A stretch of 64,000 nt of DNA from positions 2,026,001-2,090,000 of the forward strand of contig JAIGNY010000327.1 of assembly GCA_020152595.1 (NCBI GenBank). Reading direction: 5' to 3'. A program made the position numbers and the translations under genes. Below the pieces are notes generated by a model. That model ran no database searches. It saw only the letters and a program-made list of their open reading frames with translations, and was not told the DNA's origin. Below, in pieces: positions 18,201 through 54,166 of this stretch. The stretch is from Chiridota heheva. Lineage: Eukaryota; Echinodermata; Holothuroidea; Apodida; Chiridotidae. Every line of letters begins with the position of its first letter. Position 1 is the first letter of the stretch.

Positions 18201-21114
18201 TCTTACCTCAACAAGGACCATCACAACTATCCATGGACCAGAGTTTATCTGGCAATAAGGCATTAAATCCAATCTTTATGTTTGTACATATTCTGTTTAC
18301 TTACCAGCATTGTTCTCTGCATGTTGGAGTTGATGTTACTGAACATCAGTTTACCACAAACTGTAGCGATGGTCGGAAAGATCATAGCTCCACATAAGAT
18401 TCTTGTTGCCGAGATTGGGTATGTTGATGAGTGCGTATCCATGGGAACCCTCGGAACTTGTCCCGCTGACATTTCCGAGAACAGGGAGTTAAAGTATGGC
18501 AGTTTTGAGGAGTACTTGCGCCAAAGTCTAAGAACATACTCCTCCCAACGAACCATTTTTCCAAGAATCAATACCACTGGGATTGTGGGAAGTCCAATCA
18601 AAAGAAAAATGGGATCGGCACGTTCCATTACATCCAAGCCCTCTTTGTGGCCTAATAATTGCATGACAGTTACAGCACCATATGTCACCGCTGTCCAATA
18701 AATGGAGCCAATCACAAGACCCCCTGCAGCAAAAGGGCATATCTTGTAAATTATTTTATCCAATACATCCAAGATGTTAACAAATGTCCCTGCAATAAAA
18801 ATGAGAATTAAAGAAATTAACTCAAACTAACTCTATTGCATGTCTTTGGCCAATTCTGCTTACCTTGTGTTACCCTTTGATTTACTAAATATGAAACAGT
18901 AATATTAGTAAAGAACCTGCTTCATCTTGGAACTTCTACTGTCAATATCTACGTTTAGTCTCAAAAACAATCTTTGGTCAAATTTCCATTAATCAATCTC
19001 ATTTTCTTTGGGGTACTTTAAAGTTATGATCAAATTAGACAGGTAAGTTTGTTAGGTCATACCTTCATGTTAACTTTGGTAAAAGCAAAGTCAAACATTG
19101 ATTGAGTCCCACTTTGTAAGAACCAAGTTTTCCAATTACAAATTTTGCTAAATTTGTCAAGACATTGCGAGTTATCCAAGAATCAGGCTATTATATCCCA
19201 ATCTAGATATAGCTGTAGCTTAATCTGCAATGATATTTATAATGGGCTAGAATATCCCATTGTGTATATCAAATATATACCCACATTGGTACATCAACCT
19301 GAATATTTCAGTGCTAAGAAAATTAATTATTAAAATGAATATGCACACAAATAGATGAATTTCCACACCAAATTATGAATATTCATCAAACTGGTAAAAA
19401 CAAGAGTCACTTCTGTTATTGAGAAGTGTATATATTGATAATTTAATTAGAAGGTTTTGGTAAAACTGATTCTGATTAAAAATTTGTATTAATTTATCAT
19501 GCATAAATTATGGTAAGTGAGGGCAAAACTTGAATCCTAAATGGAATGATGACAGTTTGGATATCTTGTTTGGGATATCATATCCCAATGGAGATATTTC
19601 AAACAATTTCCCGTTAGGAACATATACGGCACTGCAAGAACAAGAAAATCAATCTTACCTAACTCAGGAAAGGATATTGCATACTCTGTGTTGCACTGGG
19701 GACATGAAACCTTTGCAGTACTGTTGCCTCTTTGCTTTTCATCCACCCATCTTTGCAAACAACACTGGTGAATCCATTTTGTGGTTCCACGACAGCGACA
19801 AGGTCGCACCCATTGAGCATACGGATCATCGTCCTCTGTTGCAAAGCAAACCCAACAACTCTTCCTGCAGAATACATAGATGGAACTATATTCTCACTGC
19901 AACCAGACTCAGGTGAAATAGAAAGCTGTGACATCACATCCTCACAGTCTTTACATACTCTATAATGTTCCCTGAGATTTTGTGACTTAAAAACTTTGGT
20001 TCATATGTCAAGAAAGTAGTAAAACACAATCTAGTATGGTAATGATAATTAAACACCTCAAGAATTTTTGAAGAAGAAAAAATACTTCATAAATACAAAA
20101 AACGTTATTTTTATTTTAAATACATAAACAATTGTTTAAGGAAGTGATGATGAGCGCAACAACTTTCTTAAATTAGACTTTTTAAACCAGTCATTTTCAA
20201 ACAAATGAGTTAGGACTTAAAAACTTAAACATTTCTTTACCATAATAATGATATTATTAGTTTTTTCACCATAGTGTTTCTTTTGATGACCACTTTCATA
20301 TAAGACGCAGTTGCTTTGCTACTGAACTAATCCTTTAACACAGCACCCTTGGCAACATTCCTGTCAGGAAATGACAGAACACAAAATATTGTTTAAGAAG
20401 TATTTTTCATGGCCTTGAATTGTTTGCAGCAAATTATTTTCTATATATATATATTTTTGCAGCAAATTATTTTCTATATATATATATATATATATCTTAG
20501 CACCACTTGACTTCCCCATGAATAAAATAATGTGAAATTAAATCTTGTTTAAACTGTGGGCCATCGAATACACAATTCCCTTGCTATGTAAAGTTTCGTA
20601 GTATGAATATAATACAACAATAATTTATCTTGTCATATTTTTTTTGCAATTTTCAAAACAAATGAACGACACTGTTAGCATAATTAAAGGATTAGTTCAG
20701 TGGTCACCCAAGTTTATCTGATATGAAAAAGGACTTTGATAGAAACAAAATGGTGAAAAAATACTCTAATATCTATTATTCCATTAAGGATGATTTCAAT
20801 CAATTCTACACAAATGATACAGAACTTTGAATTTAACAATGTCCTAAATGGAATAAGATTTTTGAATGATTTCTTTGCAATTTTCGAAGTCCTCTTTCAT
20901 ATAAGATGGACTTGATCCACCACTGAATTAACCCTTTTATGCTTACTTTGATCAAATCATACCTATCTTGGGAGGGTATCCTCCTTCGAACTGCATCCTT
21001 ACCAGGCACCTGAACGGTATCTTTGCCAGGCACCTGAACTGCATCCTTACCAGGCACCTGAACTGCATCCTTACCAGGCACCTGAACAGTATCCTTGCCA
21101 GGCACCTCAGTCAT
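12098..21114 (-). CDS. MARCHF5: MARCH5-type mitochondrial E3 ubiquitin ligase (four coding exons)
   Basis: Coding exons on the minus strand are 21114-20963, 19864-19659, 18789-18305 and 12286-12098. They sum to 1,032 bases (343 residues plus stop); all three introns are GT-AG and the phases fit. MARCH5 is a mitochondrial outer-membrane RING-CH ligase acting on fission/fusion factors and quality-control substrates. The RING-CH domain covers about residues 54-108, with ligands C54, C57, C73, C75, H83, C86, C105 and C108. Four hydrophobic segments follow (about 139-161, 178-195, 250-269, 282-297). Family blocks VRPCRCRG, RWVDEKQRGNST, GSIYWTAVTYGAVTVMQ and GHKEGLDVMERADP are preserved. In-frame TAG and TGA stops lie just upstream of the ATG at 21,114. 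It is longer than the usual 278 residues because of an N-terminal 8-residue repeat array and a Ser/Pro/Glu-rich C-terminal tail. No polyadenylation signal could be chosen with confidence. Confidence 0.95.
12424..13749. mobile_element. hAT-type DNA transposon (non-autonomous) with perfect 8-bp TSD
   Basis: The left end TAGAGCTGTGAACGTTTAG and the right-end complement TAGAGCTGTGACCGTTTAG match at 18 of 19 positions. Flanking 8-mers are identical: CATCCAAC at 12,416-12,423 and at 13,750-13,757. An 8-bp duplication and AGAGCTG-like ends are hAT hallmarks. No transposase ORF is recognisable in the 1,326 bp. It split an older CATGCCATCCC-type repeat. Confidence 0.88.
13261..13335 (-). mobile_element. 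tRNA-like SINE head inside the hAT element
   Basis: On the minus strand this reads like a degenerate tRNA: an A-box-like TGTGGTGTAGCGGTTA and a B-box-like GGTCCTGGGTTCAAGCC at normal spacing. It differs from the SINE family at 42.3 and 45.4 kb. It probably heads a short SINE whose body runs toward lower coordinates. A functional tRNA gene is unlikely because the arms do not pair convincingly. Confidence 0.55.
13750..14110 (+). repeat. Dispersed CCACATGCCATCCCAC-type repeat, copy 2 (right part)
   Basis: Right part of a minisatellite-bearing repeat whose left part lies at about 12,350-12,423; the hAT insertion separates them. Units are variants of CCCACATGCCATCCCACC. CA/CT-rich sequence continues to about 14,310. 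Confidence 0.7.
15655..16052. mobile_element. hAT-like MITE, copy 1
   Basis: Ends TAGGGCTGTCAC and (complement) TAGAGCTATCAC match at 10 of 12 positions. Flanks GACAAAAC (15,647-15,654) and GAAAAAAC (16,053-16,060) agree at 7 of 8, consistent with a hAT 8-bp duplication. A related inverted copy lies near 36,270-36,650. Confidence 0.7.
16273..18125. mobile_element. TIR element carrying internal ~300-bp tandem repeats (copy A)
   Basis: Bounded by GGTTCCGATG and its inverse CATCGGAACC. Inside are about five diverged units of roughly 270-320 bp, each with an ATTAATATGCATGACATCA-like block, CACCAAAACCAATAGG and CACATATGACATGAATCC. A second copy with the same ends, in inverted internal orientation, lies at 58,511-59,968. 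No coding region was recognised and no target duplication is clear. Confidence 0.7.
18305..18789 (-). CDS. MARCHF5: MARCH5 coding exon 3 (transmembrane core)
   Basis: The acceptor TTGCAG|GG is at 18,790-18,791 and the donor CTG|GTAAGT at 18,304. It encodes TFVNILDVLDKIIYKICPFA through three hydrophobic segments to SNINSNMQRTML. It ends in phase 0, matching exon 4. Confidence 0.95.
18790..19658 (-). other. MARCH5 intron 2
   Basis: An 869-base intron bounded by GTAAGA and TTGCAG. AT-rich, with no recognised repeat or gene. Confidence 0.85.
19659..19864 (-). CDS. MARCHF5: MARCH5 coding exon 2 (RING-CH domain)
   Basis: The acceptor is CTGCAG|G at 19,865-19,866 and the donor TTAG|GTAAGA at 19,658. 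The exon encodes KSCWVCFATEDDD through CPQCNTEY to SFPEL, the entire RING-CH zinc-binding module. It ends with one base of a Gly codon completed by exon 3. Confidence 0.95.
19865..20962 (-). other. MARCH5 intron 1
   Basis: A 1,098-base intron bounded by GTATGA and CTGCAG. It holds short (TA)n tracts with a local duplication near 20,430-20,500, and the MITE at 20,684-20,939. Another MITE-like end is visible near 20,285-20,340. Confidence 0.8.
20684..20939. mobile_element. TIR MITE with TTA flanks (Harbinger-like?)
   Basis: The left end AAGGATTAGTTCAGTGG and the right-end complement AAGGGTTAATTCAGTGG are inverted repeats, and similarity continues inward through CATATAAGA-type sequence to GGACTT. 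Both ends are flanked by TTA, compatible with the 3-bp TWA duplication of PIF/Harbinger elements. It ends 23 bases from the MARCH5 exon 1 donor. Related single ends occur near 10,210-10,260 and 20,285-20,340. Confidence 0.65.
20963..21114 (-). CDS. MARCHF5: MARCH5 coding exon 1 with 24-bp coding minisatellite
   Basis: It encodes MTE, then four full and one partial copy of VPGKDxVQ (x is T or A), then RRRIPSQD and the first two bases of an Arg codon. The 24-bp DNA repeat spans about 20,990-21,106. The donor is AG|GTATGA at 20,962. Joining to exon 2 (G|AAG) gives R-K-S-C-W, which fits the family's D-R-S-C-W. The repeat itself is not part of the conserved family; the exon's place is supported by the exact phase match. 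Confidence 0.85.
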
Positions 21115-24307: not shown

Positions 24308-24712
24308 TGCGCTGGATGATGGCAGCAGCAGCTGTTTTGTTGCCTTTCTTGGAGCCAATAGTTTTGGTTGAAAACAAAACTGTGTGCGAAAACAATTAAA
24401 TAAAATATCTAGAAATGTTTAGATCATTGATGTTACAGCCCGATGGGAGTGTTTTGAACTTTGACTGTACTGTGGAGAGCTTGTCAGACAATTTTTATGA
24501 AAAGAATAGTCAAAAATAATTCGCTAAGAGTAACAAAAATTACCTTTAAAATAGTTTTTGAAGACATGGATGGGCTTCAAACATTGATTTTAATCATTGT
24601 GAGCGAAAAAAAAAAACAAGGGTAAAATCACAGGTGTTCCTAACGTTTGTCAGACTATATATATTTTTATGATAAAGAATAGTCAAGCGGTACATACGGG
24701 GTTAATCTGCAC
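24308..24712. other. Spacer before the 24.7-29.2 kb element
   Basis: AT-rich, with a direct repeat of GTCAGAC...TTTTTATGA-AAAGAATAGTCAA at about 24,484 and 24,651. No gene recognised. Confidence 0.45.
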
Positions 24713-25140
24713 CCCAGGACTCTTCCAAACCAACTTTTTAGCTTCTTTTTATAGTCCTAAAACACATTCACGATGTTAACAAAAAAAAAAAATCCGGCAC
24801 TCTGGAGATATTCAAGATGGCGTCCAAAATGGCGCCAAAAATGGGACAATTCTCTAAAAAGTCATATATTGGCCATAAGCAATAATTATCTTTAAAAAGA
24901 AACCTCAAAATATTATCATAGGAGCTGTTGGGAACACTTGCAACCATATTTATATTTTTGCATAACTTTGCCATATTCCAAATCCAATATGGCGGCCAAT
25001 ATGGTGTCCAAAATGGCCGCCAAAATGACAAAATTCTAATTTAAAAGTCATATATTGTCCATAATTAAAAGAAAGTACAGAATATTATTTTAGGGCCATT
25101 GGGAACTCTTACCAACCATGTTTGTATTGTTACTATTTTC
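24713..25140 (+). repeat. Left composite terminal inverted repeat
   Basis: Reads outward to inward: terminal CCCAGGACTC block, CGATGTTAAC, an A-tract, CGGCACTCTGGAGATATTC, AAGATGGCGTCCAAAATGG, then about two copies of a unit containing AAAAGTCATATATTG, CTCAAAATATTAT and CTTGCAACCATATTTATAT. It is the inverse of 28,656-29,171. The inner limit is approximate. Confidence 0.85.
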
Positions 25141-25303
25141 TAAATCATAGATGGCCTATGGGAAAATTGTTTTGTATGCATCAATTTGGTCTGCATGAAT
25201 CCAATTTACCCTTTTAAAATCCAAGTCGGTATCGCAGACCGTTTTTGCAGAGTCCTATTCCGAAAATTTTAGACTGAGTTAGCAACAACACTACAACGTT
25301 AAA

Positions 25304-28300
25304 ATGGCTCATTTAATAGAGGAAAACATAACCTTTAAAAAAAAGTTGAAGACCCAGTACACACACAAGTCTCAATTCCCAGAACCAAAGAGCACTCTCT
25401 CAAGCTAGACACACCTGCTCCATTGCCACCTTTTCATATTGCAAAGAGAAAAGGTCCTAACATAGACCTACAGAATGTCCAGCAGCCAGAAGAAAATTTG
25501 GCTTTGTTACAGAGAGCTTTAACAGTGTACTTCATCTGGGCTTTCTGTCGAAAAGCAAGTAGTACTGACAAGCAGCAGATACCAGCACTGTGTGGGTTCA
25601 TTTCTGCCATTGGATGCCCCCAAGTGAACTTACCACCATTGACTTTTATCCGTCCATTACCGAGCCTATCACAGAGTACAATGTTGTGAAAGAACTGTTG
25701 CGTCAATGCGAGAAGGCTACTGAGGAAGTTGGACAGCGTTACACAATAACTACATTTGACCTTGGTGTAATCATGAAAGCCATGCCTATCATATGGGACA
25801 ACCCTGCAGCTTACAAGAACCACATCGTCCTCATTGGAACCTTCCATACCATCATGAACTACTTGAATATGCTTGGACATAAGATGGCAAGTTCTGGCTA
25901 CTCTGAGCTCATTATAGAAGCAAATCTCACAACCTCTGGCTGCCTGAAAGGAGTTCTAAATGGCAAAGCGTATAGCAAGTCCATGTGGTGTCTGAAAGTA
26001 GTAAGTGAAGCCTTAGAACGACTACTTCTTTCAGCTTATATCGCCCAGAGGGATGAAACTGCTCACGGCCCCACAAATGCAGATGCTCTGGATGCCTTGA
26101 TAACACTCTGTAATGCTGAGAACTTTAATGCTGTTCTTCAAGATCCTACAATTCAGCAGTATCTAAATGACTACACGGTGTTCCAAGAGCGAGTCCGAAA
26201 TGGAGAACTAGGAAAGACCGCCAAGTTCTGGATATCTTTTTTGGATCATGCACACCGTATCTTTATGCTGCTCTATGCAGTAAAGACAAACAATCTGAAA
26301 TTGTACCACAAGTGCATGGCGGACATGGCAGACTTGTTCTTTAGCTTTGGAGGAATCAATTACTCTAGATACCTCACCTGGTTTGATGCATTTCTCGCCA
26401 ACATTGAGGTCAGTCATCCAGGAGCTACTCGATTACTAGAGAAAGGAGCCATATCCGTTGCCAGGTCCAGAATACCCGGTAACTTATGTGCCGTAGACAA
26501 GACGATAGAGGAAACCTTCATGAAGTTTGCCAAGTCCCATGCTGGTGCTGGTGGAGCTGGTTTTACTGGAATCTTAGAGAACTACGGTGCTTACCAGCGA
26601 TGGATTCGGACGACATCAGAACGTAGTAAGTACTACCAGGCCACATTGGAGATATGTGACATGTGTCTTGACAATGATAACGCCAAGTGTGGCAAGCACC
26701 GTGAGCAACTCCAGACAGAAATCAAAAGGAGTGAAGCTGCAGTACAACGAGTAATGGATGCCATAGAAGGCTTCCTCAACCCATTCGACATAGCAGACAA
26801 AGACCGCTTGTATGAGATTTCATCTGGCAATCCCATACCTTCTGAGATAGAACATGATGTTCTAACTGCTGAGGAAGCTGGCAGGTTGGAGAAGGAGAAG
26901 TTTGTTGAGGAGAGGCTAAAGAAAAAAGATGACGACGAAGGACGAAAGGAATTCTTTGACCCGTTGAAGAAGTTAAAGCTGAAGACCATGCAAAAGTTGA
27001 ACAAGAAAGTTAAGCTAACATCTGCTCAAGGAAATGCTTTGAAATATCAAGAGCAGGGGGGGTATAGCCTTTCAAATTCTTGTGAAGTCACAGATGCTCT
27101 CTCAACCTGTAAGCATTGATGAACTGATGAATTACTGCATTACACTAGTACCTCATGCTCTAGGTACTCCCGATGGCTTCATGGCAAAAACCAACAAAGC
27201 AGCAGCAGTCCACTTCCTCAAAAGCGACGTGCCTCAAGCTTCCTTACCGTCCAGAAATGCTGGAGAAACACTCTTCATTGAAGATGGGAATGCCCATTTC
27301 CATACATTGAAGGATCTGCCTCCAACCTTCAAGCAAATTTCTTTCAAGCTGCTTGACCAAATAAGCCATAAGCCAGATGTAATCTTCTCAACTGACATGT
27401 ATCTGGAAGAGTCCATCAAAAGTCAGGAGGGCTTCGCCGTGGCTGCAGTGAGAAAATCCTCTTGGAAGGCATCAACACCAGAAAGCCAGCCAATTTCAAG
27501 GTCTTTCTGCAGAATGACGAAAATAAAAAGCAGTTGTGTCAGCTCATGCTTCGCTCTTGGAGTAGTCCAGAAGCAGCACGACGTTTAGTAGGAAGGAAAG
27601 TTATACTTGTGGTTGAAGGTGTTCCGTTCTTGCTAACATCTACCGACGGTGCATCTGTGCAACAACATGAAATCCCAGGGCTTAGATCAAACCAAGAGGA
27701 AACAGACAGCCGAGTGATCCTGTATTTGTTTTATGCCAAGGAACATGGTTACAAACAGGCAGTTGTACACAGCCCAGATAGCGATATCTTCTTCATATTG
27801 TTGTACTATGCAGAGAAATTGCGACCACTGACTGTTCTGTTTGACACTGGCAGTGGAGTTAACCGGAGACTCCTTGACATCTGTGACATAGCAAAAGACT
27901 TGGGACCCACATACTGTAAGGCACTTCTCGGCATTTACTGCTTTACTGGTGCAGATTGCAACTGCGCTTTTAAAGGAAAGGGGAAGAAAATTCCTCTGAA
28001 GACACTTGAAAAGAGGCCACGCTACCAAGACTCTTTCGTGAAGTTGGGCAATAGCTGGGAAGTTGAGGAGAGTCTAGTTGATGAGCTGGATGAGTTTGTG
28101 TGTGCTCTATATGGCTTTCCTAGACTTAAGCATGCCAATCAAGTTCGATGTGCAATGTTGAAGAAGATGATTGGCGAAGGAGAGACCATCAAGTCATCCA
28201 AAGTAGATTTGTCCAGGATGCCACCTTGTAGACAGTCGCTGATCCCACACATCAAACGTGCAAATTACAGGGTAGCTCAATGGAAACGGGCACACATACC

Positions 28301-28520
28301 CATACTTGAAATCCCGCCTCCTACAGCACATGGATGGGCTCTTTGTGATGGATACATTGAGCCAGTGTGGTCAGAGGGACCTATCTTGCCGTCATGTCTT
28401 CAAGATATATTGGCTGATGACACTGAGGAGGATTCATCTGATGAAGAATATCCTGAGGAAGATGGTGTTCCAGATGAATCAGATTATTCCAGCCTAGACT
28501 CTGATTCTGACAGTGACTGA
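25304..28520 (+). pseudogene. Large element protein (about 1,070 residues) broken by about four frameshifts
   Basis: Reading starts at ATG 25,304 (MAHLIEENITF), shifts frame between 25,337 and 25,400, again at a C5 run near 25,618, at a G7 run near 27,056, and near 27,428. The main segment to about 27,060 has the conserved-looking phrases TTFDLGVIMKAMPIIWDNP, IGTFHTIMNYLNMLGHKM, GKTAKFWISFLDHAHRI and SRYLTWFDAFLAN. Its end is Lys/Glu-rich (EKEKFVEERLKKKDDDEG). From memory, predicted proteins with this order of phrases are scattered in fish and invertebrate genomes without known function; I cannot confirm this here. The protein ends in an acidic tail (EEDSSDEEYPEED to SDSDSD). Three of the four shifts lie at short runs, so assembly error is a real alternative to decay. 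The gene lies centrally between the TIRs. Confidence 0.8.
27429..28520 (+). CDS. C-terminal FEN1/XPG-like (PIN-fold) nuclease domain of the element protein
   Basis: Counted from the Met at 27,462, acidic residues are spaced as in FEN1/XPG internal regions: E79, E80, D82 (NQEETDSRVILY), then D106 and D108 (VVHSPDSDIFFILL), then D165 in CFTGADCNCAFKGKGKK, which resembles the aspartate plus helix-hairpin-helix of flap nucleases. An upstream block, IFSTDMYLEESIK (27,390-27,419, other frame), may supply the first aspartate. FEN1-family enzymes cut branched DNA using metal ions held by such residues. That this one is a nuclease is inferred from motif spacing only. The reading frame is open from about 27,429, so an artificial start was not chosen. 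The acidic C-terminus follows residue 320. Confidence 0.7.
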   Translation, partial: GLRRGCSEKILLEGINTRKPANFKVFLQNDENKKQLCQLMLRSWSSPEAARRLVGRKVILVVEGVPFLLTSTDGASVQQHEIPGLRSNQEETDSRVILYLFYAKEHGYKQAVVHSPDSDIFFILLYYAEKLRPLTVLFDTGSGVNRRLLDICDIAKDLGPTYCKALLGIYCFTGADCNCAFKGKGKKIPLKTLEKRPRYQDSFVKLGNSWEVEESLVDELDEFVCALYGFPRLKHANQVRCAMLKKMIGEGETIKSSKVDLSRMPPCRQSLIPHIKRANYRVAQWKRAHIPILEIPPPTAHGWALCDGYIEPVWSEGPILPSCLQDILADDTEEDSSDEEYPEEDGVPDESDYSSLDSDSDSD

Positions 28521-28655
28521 TTCATTATAAACACAGGTTATTTTAAATGTATAAAATATGAACATTGTAGAAGAAACTAGTAACTCTTATGAAAAGATAA
28601 GCGGTGGACATTCGCTATATAAAATGTCCATATGTAAGCAATTTTTTTTCATGAT

Positions 28656-29171
28656 TTTCTTTTTTGATATACTTGGCGGCCATTTTGGATGCCATACTGG
28701 CCGCCATATTGGATTTTGAACATGGCAAAGTTATGCAAAAATATAAATATGGTTGCAAGTGTTCACAACACCTTCTAGAATAATATTTTGAGGTTTCTTT
28801 TCAATGATAATTATTGTTTATGGCCAATAACTTTTTGATTTTTTTTAATTTGACCATTTTGACGCCATTTTGGACGCCATCTTGGCCGCCATATTGGATT
28901 AGGAACATGGCAAAAAATATGAATATGGTTGCAAGTGCTCCAAAAAGCTTCTAGAACAATATTTTGAGGTTTCCTTTCAATAAAAATTATTATTTATGGC
29001 CAATATATGACTTTTTATAGAATTTTACCATTTTGGACGCCATATTGACGCCATTTTGGACGCCATCTTGAATATCGCCAGAGTGCCGAGATTTTTTTTT
29101 GTTAACATCTTAAATGTGTTTTAGGACCATAAAAAAAGAAGCTAAAAAAGTTGGTTTGGAAGAGTCCTGGG
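28656..29171 (-). repeat. Right composite terminal inverted repeat
   Basis: Inverse of the left arm, ending CCTGGG at 29,171. It has two successive units of about 190 bp, each with GGCCGCCATATTGGAT, CAAGTG and AATATTTTGAGGTTTC blocks. It is about 90 bp longer than the left arm because of extra GCCATTTTGGACGCC repeats. Confidence 0.85.
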
Positions 29172-30232: not shown

Positions 30233-30677
30233 ACATGTATGGCCCCTGGCATGTATGGCCCCTGGCGTGTGTGGCCCCTGGCGTGTGTGGCCCCTGGCGT
30301 GCGTGGCCTCTGGCGTGCGTGGCCTCTGGCGTATGTGGCCCCTGGCGTGTGTGGCCCCTGGCGTGTGTGGCCCCTGGCGTGTGTGGCCCCTGGCGTGTGT
30401 GGCCCCTGGCGAGTGTGGCCCCTGGCGTGTGTGGCCCCTGGCGTGTGGCCCCTGGCATGTGTGGCCCCTGATATGTGTGGTCCCTAGCATGTGTGGCCTC
30501 TTGCATATGTGGCCCCTGGCATGTGTGGTCCCTGGCATGTGTGGCCCCTGGCATATGTGGCCCCTGGCATGTGTGGCCTATGGCATGTGTGGCCCCTGGC
30601 ATGTGTGGCACCTGGCATGTATGACCCCTGGCATGTGTGGCCCCTGGCATGTGTTGCCCCTGGCATGTATGGCCCCT
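30233..30677. repeat. 16-bp minisatellite, about 27 units
   Basis: Tandem units of GGCCCCTGGCGTGTGT and variants (GGCATGTGT in the right half). The left half is CG-richer and the right half has CG changed to CA, as expected from CpG decay. Because 16 is not a multiple of 3 and the unit lacks stops, all forward frames stay open; the apparent proteins are artefacts. Confidence 0.95.
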
Positions 30678-53297: not shown

Positions 53298-54166
53298 TGA
53301 TTGTTGGCTTACATGTGCTTACGGTTAGTGTATACATGCTTGGGATGAGCATATGCATGCTTGCGGTGAGCCTATACGTGCTTACGTTGAGTGTATACCT
53401 GCTTGGGGTGAGCTTACAGTGAGTGTATACATGCTTGGGGTGAGCGTATACATGCTTGTGGTGAATGTATACATGCTTACGTTAAACGATGTATACATGC
53501 TTACGTTAAACGTGTACCTGCTTCGGGTAAGCTAACAAGTGCTTACAGTGAGTGTATACATACTTGCAGTGAGCATACATGCTTGTGGTGAGCGTATATA
53601 TGCTTGGGGTTAGTGCATATGTGCTTGCGGTGAGTGCATACGTGCTAGCGGTGAGCGTATACATGCTTGGAGTGAGGGTATACATGCTTGGAGTGAGGGT
53701 ATACATGCTTGGGATGAGCATATACATGCCTGGGATGAGTGTTTATGTGCTTGCAGAGAACGTATATGTGCTTCCAGTGAGTGTATACATGCCTGGGGTA
53801 AATGCATACGTGCTTGTGGTGAGTGTACATATGCTTGGGGTGAGCGTATACATGCTTGGGGTGAGCGTATACATGCTTGGGGTGAGTGTATATGTACTTG
53901 CAGTGAGTATACATGCTTTGGGTGAGCGTATACATGCTTGGGGTTAGTGCATAGGTGCTTGCGATGAGTGCATACGTGTTAGCGGTGAGCGTATACATGC
54001 TCGGGTTGAGTGCATATATGCTTGGGGTGAGCATATACATGCTAACAGTGAGCGTATACATGCATGGGATGAACATATACATGTTTGCAGTGAGCATATA
54101 CATCCTTGGGGTGCGTGTATACACCCTTGGGGTGAGCATATTCATGCTTGCAGTGAGCGTATGCAT
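53298..54166. repeat. 21-bp minisatellite, about 40 units
   Basis: Units like GTGAGCGTATACATGCTTGG with variation in the last bases (GGG, GCG, GCA). Since 21 is a multiple of 3, frames stay open and give false proteins (VSVYMLG repeats). The array starts earlier, at about 52,285, and resumes after 54,430; two elements interrupt it. Confidence 0.95.

Follow-up and report, generated by a model that had tools for sequence, protein, structure and literature searches.

The holothurian Chiridota heheva carries, on contig JAIGNY010000327.1 (assembly GCA_020152595.1), a repeat-bounded element that encloses one large coding region. We analyzed it within a 64,000-nucleotide stretch (positions 2,026,001 to 2,090,000, forward strand), here called the window and numbered from its first letter. 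A preliminary description, made from the sequence alone, had placed at 24713-29171 a possible undescribed DNA transposon with a flap-nuclease-like protein. We report that the element is quite probably a decayed copy of a family of cut-and-paste DNA transposons, most likely of the AcademX lineage, with a DDE-like transposase region and a FEN/XPG-type nuclease.

Layout of the window copy

Features of the element are listed below with their strand (+, − or none) and the basis of each call in parentheses; conserved residues are numbered on P0001, a 964-residue stretch of copy L046 used as the reference.

24680..24712 (about), +: left outer end and actual terminus of the element, a degenerate version of TAGACGGGTACATACGGGGGGTTAATGTGCAC (compared with the outer termini of 37 other copies)
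24713..24739, +: left inner terminal inverted repeat, 27 bp (100% complementary to 29145-29171)
24740..25068, none: left subterminal inverted region, carrying tandem repeats of the 12-bp CCAAAATGGCGG type (inverted pairs, tandem repeats, motif counts)
25334..25348, none: internal deletion junction (common to the window copy and nine others, A-run length aside)
25339..25689, +: first coding stretch, the preceding N-terminal part of the protein missing (stop-free stretch; tblastn)
25569..27119, +: transposase-like region, homologous to the part of related families that corresponds to DUF6589 (stop-free stretch, alignment)
25758..25760, +: second conserved D codon, D365 of P0001 (invariant in all 8 rows, including two from the window family)
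25845..25847, +: conserved H codon in GxxH, H394 of P0001 (invariant in 8 of 8 rows)
26496..26510, +: DxxxE motif, comprising D610 and the candidate catalytic residue E614 of P0001 (invariant in the 6 covering rows of 8)
27043..27588, +: beginning of the nuclease domain, in a different frame, with D codons at 27283-27285 and 27394-27396 (alignments)
27396..28520, +: rest of the FEN/XPG-like nuclease and acidic tail (sequence comparison)
27696-27701 (E, two), 27705-27707, 27777-27779, 27783-27785 and 27954-27956 (D, one each), +: further acid codons of the nuclease
28673..29144, none: right subterminal inverted region with 176-bp and 12-bp tandem repeats (inverted pairs, tandem repeats)
29145..29171, −: right inner terminal inverted repeat, 27 bp (no outer right end follows 29171, where one is expected)

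The D codons at 27283-27285 and 27394-27396 presumably correspond to D34 and D86 of FEN1. The four stop-free stretches (25339-25689, 25569-27119, 27043-27588, and 27396-28520) all lie on the plus strand and overlap in different frames, which leaves the gene frame-broken. In tblastn against the window element, the first 224 residues of P0001 gave a best E value of 0.88, and the N-terminus is missing; D365, H394, D610, and E614 are retained, and D198 is missing. Loss of this first candidate catalytic D by the whole family was considered and dropped, because full-length copies have its D-N motif. Since the right outer end is absent, the target duplication of the window copy is unreadable. The copy is decayed, internally deleted, and non-autonomous.

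Element ends, copies, and target-site duplications

The two inner ends (24713-24739 and 29145-29171) form an inverted pair of 27 nt that is 100% complementary, and inside them lie partly overlapping inverted arms of 44, 56, 66, 135, and 157 nt (84-93% complementary); both the near-identical ends and the long inverted similarity noted earlier were thus confirmed. Allowing up to 3 mismatches, the 19-bp end occurred at two sites in the window, both of them ends of the element (chance expectation, 0.01). The exact 19-mer occurred at 240 sites in the 1.1-Gb genome (122 forward and 118 reverse; control pattern, 0). A search for other copies and their insertion boundaries, proposed in the preliminary description, was made on 37 facing 19-mer pairs besides the window's own, picked among the matches listed and spanning 3.4-5.5 kb.

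In these 37 pairs, the copies extended a further ~30-45 bp (about 35) outside the inner repeat, to termini of the form TAG...CTA, so the 27-bp repeat first taken for the end of the element is internal to it. A 3-bp duplication flanked TAG...CTA in 32 of the 34 copies that a script could place, with L031, L037, and L056 left unplaced; the placed copies lacking it were L029 and L052. When left and right flanks from different copies were paired as a control, 3 bp agreed in 74 of 1122 combinations, and a 4-bp agreement was seen in 0 of 34 copies. The duplications comprised 17 different sequences. An earlier, cruder parse gave a 3-bp match in 31 of 35, L052 among them. Copy L027 sits in a tandem repeat whose neighboring units represent the unoccupied site, with a single TAT versus two at the occupied site. 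We dropped the idea that the element had inserted into a different one, of which the outer ~35 bp would be the remains; they are its own termini, because the 3-bp duplications sit just outside them.

The outer end reads TAG[T/A]CGGGTA[T/C]ATACGGG[T/G]GGTTAATGTGCAC, with variants, followed by a run of C and then CCCAGGACTC. Across copies L021 to L057, the C run was 3-16 bases long (CCC of the inner repeat included) and differed between copies and also between both ends of one copy; this variation could be real or an effect of assembly. The two outer ends are unlike each other, with an TACATACGG form upstream of the gene and an TATATACGGG form downstream. Both forms were recognized in 29 of the 37 copies and a single form in 8, and the reversed order never occurred. 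Tandem repeats of the CCAAAATGGCGG type are present in both subterminal regions (24713-25068 and 28673-29171). At aligned positions the copies matched the majority base at 96-99%, which makes a fairly recent origin of the family probable.

The deletion junction of the window copy recurred in nine of the 37 copies (L022, L026, L029, L033, L034, L035, L037, L047, and L055; 10 of 38 with the window copy); the multiple-copy alignment that shows the deletion gap misplaces its edge by ~30 bases. The nine have differing flanks; of the 8 that the script placed, 7 showed a 3-bp duplication. With one junction, differing flanks, and 3-bp duplications, this deletion derivative has been mobilized repeatedly, presumably in trans. 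A second deletion lineage (L024, L032, L036, L051, and L057; 3.4-4.1 kb) has a further 197-column gap in common.

The full-length protein and related families

The longest-reading copies (L042, L045, L046, L054, and L058, the last with a 1,187-residue stretch) retain stops or frame changes. Pieced together from several copies, the full gene is predicted to encode one protein of roughly 1,400-1,500 residues, with a Cys/His-containing N-terminus, a DDE-like DUF6589-type transposase region, and a C-terminal FEN/XPG-type nuclease. P0001 matched at least 62 stretches of the genome (47 of 1534 candidates scored). A query modeled on the nuclease region of widespread animal proteins gave at least 150 matches, one of them the window copy (7.3e-27), from 1250 candidates of which 150 were scored. 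Against PDB, P0001 had a single match, a tRNA ligase (E, 1.9). Three scans of viral contigs yielded no confirmed relative.

By our own reading of identity, the fetched relatives were grouped into eight further families (L059/L060, L061/L064, L062, L063, L065/L066, L067/L068, L069, and L070/L071). Identity to the window family was 25-32% in the nuclease and 21-34% in the upstream region. A transposase-like part was present at the nuclease locus in 8 of the 9 families fetched; for L063 none was found within the ~1.7 kb of upstream sequence covered. A Cys-rich, CXC-like C-terminal tail was seen in L059, L062, L063, L064, and L070, where the window family has an acidic tail instead.

The motif AAAATGGC occurred 5 times in the 860 bp of the element's ends, once in its 3,599-bp core, and 10 times in the remaining 59,541 bp of the window. 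It was also found near the stretch ends of L059, L060, and L066, not L064; because of this recurrence, it may be a transposase binding site common to some families. Near the stretch ends of L060, L064, and L066 no long pair of terminal repeats was found; those of L059 had two partial pairs (68 and 51 nt).

The FEN/XPG-type nuclease

The acidic spacing of FEN1/XPG nucleases described earlier was recovered in a 374-residue stretch as E101/E102/D104, D128/D130, and D187, a constant shift of +22 from the first numbering. Alignment A1 comprised six stretches from five families, in which D10, D47, E148, E149, D151, D175, D177, and D234 (numbered on the L042 stretch) were invariant. The partial stretches L062, L067, L068, and L069, left out of A1, were added in a set of 12 sequences from nine families. 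There, ExD, DxD, and GxD were each present in 12 of 12 rows and the D47-type residue was D in all 8 covering rows; the first position was D in 8 of 9, with E in L070. By alignment, then, seven acids of the FEN1 metal-binding type are present in order wherever covered, bar one D-to-E change.

Searched against PDB, the L042 stretch best matched 9l56 (a 5'-3' exonuclease; E, 0.13), with the alignment falling on or close to the E/D, SPDxD, and GD motifs, followed by lipoxygenases at 1.5 or above; the C-terminal stretch of the window gave 9l56 at 0.45, then lipoxygenases at 1.4. The six-sequence profile had 5 matches at E ≤ 10, all to EXO1 (0.02-0.58), that cover GCD and a stretch we take to be the helix-two-turn-helix. 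A seven-sequence nuclease alignment was compared (hhalign) with archaeal FEN1 (49 sequences of 53 loci, three partial ones left out and one dropped for length), giving a score of 42.5 (P, 9.9e-5) at ~20% identity; among the controls, the best printed of 30 column shuffles scored 22.4, the reversed profile 17.6, and the transposase region 22.0. When extended, the alignment placed both N-terminal D residues, E-x-E/D, DxD, and GD in FEN1 order, at low confidence outside its C-terminal third. Matches to PF18276 (two of the six nuclease members; best, 0.015) and TCR (one member, 0.39) were taken as chance. At the level of sequence comparison, the assignment of the C-terminal part to FEN/XPG-type nucleases is borne out.

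The transposase-like region

The preliminary description found no known transposase signature, a view that was not supported: invariant residues in a DDE-like layout lie upstream of the nuclease, and a related family matches DUF6589. In alignment A2 (transposase region), 3 of 12 rows matched DUF6589 at E ≤ 1. Among proteins of related families, the match of L066 spanned profile positions 19-386 of 410 (1.6e-7; 30.8 bits; cut-off, 27); L067 matched below the cut-off, and the other five proteins searched had no match. The genome held 27 DUF6589 matches, 26 of them over the cut-off (two only with neighbors in frame), and none of 14 control genomes held any. The best, on contig C1581, lies in an open frame of 1,774 residues with a FEN-like nuclease towards its end.

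A column scan of eight proteins from seven families, restricted to single D, E, H, N, K, R, C, or W residues covered by at least six rows, gave eight invariant columns (D-N, D, H, W, D, E, and R). Leaving aside W and R, they are D198-N, D365, H394, D610, and E614 of P0001, which suggest a DDE-like layout in the order D...D...GxxH; these may be the catalytic residues. We took as chance the matches to FTA4, TEDC1, UspB, and Apolipo_F (one A2 member each), to PF18276 (0.041) and PRP21_like_P (0.034) in related-family proteins, and to PF14441 (0.039) on L058, together with that to DUF2524 (0.13) on the window frames, where nothing exceeded chance.

Several results weigh against our interpretation. 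For the nuclease, the hhalign probability was 58% with a confident alignment of 93 columns, global mode gave no alignment (score, 0.7), and Pfam nuclease families were unmatched by all 6 sequences. For the transposase, the window family's own region had no Pfam match, the A2 profile had none in PDB, and the stretches of L068, L069, L059, and L064 did not match DUF6589 at E ≤ 0.1. No fetched copy was demonstrated to be intact or active.

Classification and proposed mechanism

The claim of a mobile DNA element with a FEN/XPG-type nuclease is upheld by the 240 exact 19-mers, the 3-bp duplications, and the sequence comparisons. The claim that it is undescribed holds at most for the family. No title or abstract opening among the open-licence papers searched described it, and none of those papers contained DUF6589; as a kind, Academ elements with a nuclease and 3-4-bp duplications are already in print (PMC10045372). 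According to that paper, AcademX has 3-4-bp duplications, AcademH of the same superfamily has a helicase and 9-10-bp duplications, and the difference between the two is tied to the encoded nuclease or helicase (PMC10045372). The window family encodes a nuclease and its 3-bp duplication falls within the AcademX range, not at 9-10 bp, and its Pfam matches include no helicase. Because the 3-bp duplications and the encoded nuclease fit the AcademX description, membership, judged from that published description, is likely though not proven. We take the AcademX nuclease to be of the XPG type.

The long subterminal inverted regions, the poly-C runs, and the two unlike outer ends may distinguish the window family from AcademX elements. 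The family might instead belong to a superfamily of its own, still without a name, whose likeness to AcademX stops at the duplication length and the possession of a nuclease; its termini are TAG...CTA, but both stated AcademX features are present, and we regard this alternative as unlikely.

Other known systems are further removed. KolobokD and KolobokE also pair a DDD/E transposase with an additional nuclease, of the DEDDh and PD-D/ExK types (PMC9587614), whereas that of the window family is of the FEN/XPG type. Its nuclease shares with FEN1, EXO1, and XPG the seven acids in FEN1 order and the EXO1 helix-two-turn-helix stretch but is ~20% identical and fused to a transposase-like region. DUF6589 matches the transposase-like region of relatives, with L066 above the cut-off, but the window family falls below detection, and the Pfam title gives no function. 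EnSpm/CACTA elements end in CACTA, whereas the window family ends in TAG...CTA; piggyBac and Kolobok duplicate TTAA, whereas the 3-bp duplications here comprise many sequences.

In the mechanism that we propose, the DDE-like region would cut the element's 3' ends and join them to target sites staggered by 3 bp. During excision or gap repair, the fused nuclease would trim or cut an intermediate with a branch or flap, and deleted copies, the window copy included, would be moved in trans by full-length relatives. The unusual nuclease-based mobilization chemistry suggested earlier is not favored, given the separate DDE-like region in the same protein. A division of labor at the ends, in which the DDE-like region cuts the joined strand and the nuclease cuts or trims the other, with poly-C as a trace of processing or repair slippage, is conceivable by analogy but doubtful; in Tn7, two proteins share the two strands.

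The nuclease could also be captured host cargo without a role in transposition. FEN, EXO1, and XPG genes are universal host genes, and the deletion derivatives move without a whole gene of their own; against this, a transposase-like part accompanies the nuclease in nearly all families fetched, and between families the nuclease is as divergent (19-53% identity) as the transposase part, which makes cargo quite improbable. Still less credible is that the nuclease itself, a structure-specific FEN/XPG enzyme, is the recombinase and the upstream region serves DNA binding only: its acidic set is complete and it is conserved about as well as the upstream part, but invariant D-N, D, H, D, and E are found in that part too, and a strict 3-bp duplication is the trace of staggered DDE-type strand transfer. 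FEN enzymes cut flaps at branch points.

Other features of the window

A minisatellite with a 16-bp unit in 28 copies lies 1 kb from the element (30234-30677), and a long 21/42-bp minisatellite (53316-54166) gives a repetitive open frame of 178 residues on the minus strand. An open stretch at 18263-18826 (minus strand), judged by translation only, presumably resembles part of a mitochondrial MARCH5-type ubiquitin ligase.

Implications

DUF6589, which has no function in Pfam, and a FEN-like nuclease are now linked to genuine transposons whose ends and target duplications are defined. Residues to test have been named for both candidate active sites, and it can now be asked directly whether transposition requires the fused flap nuclease.

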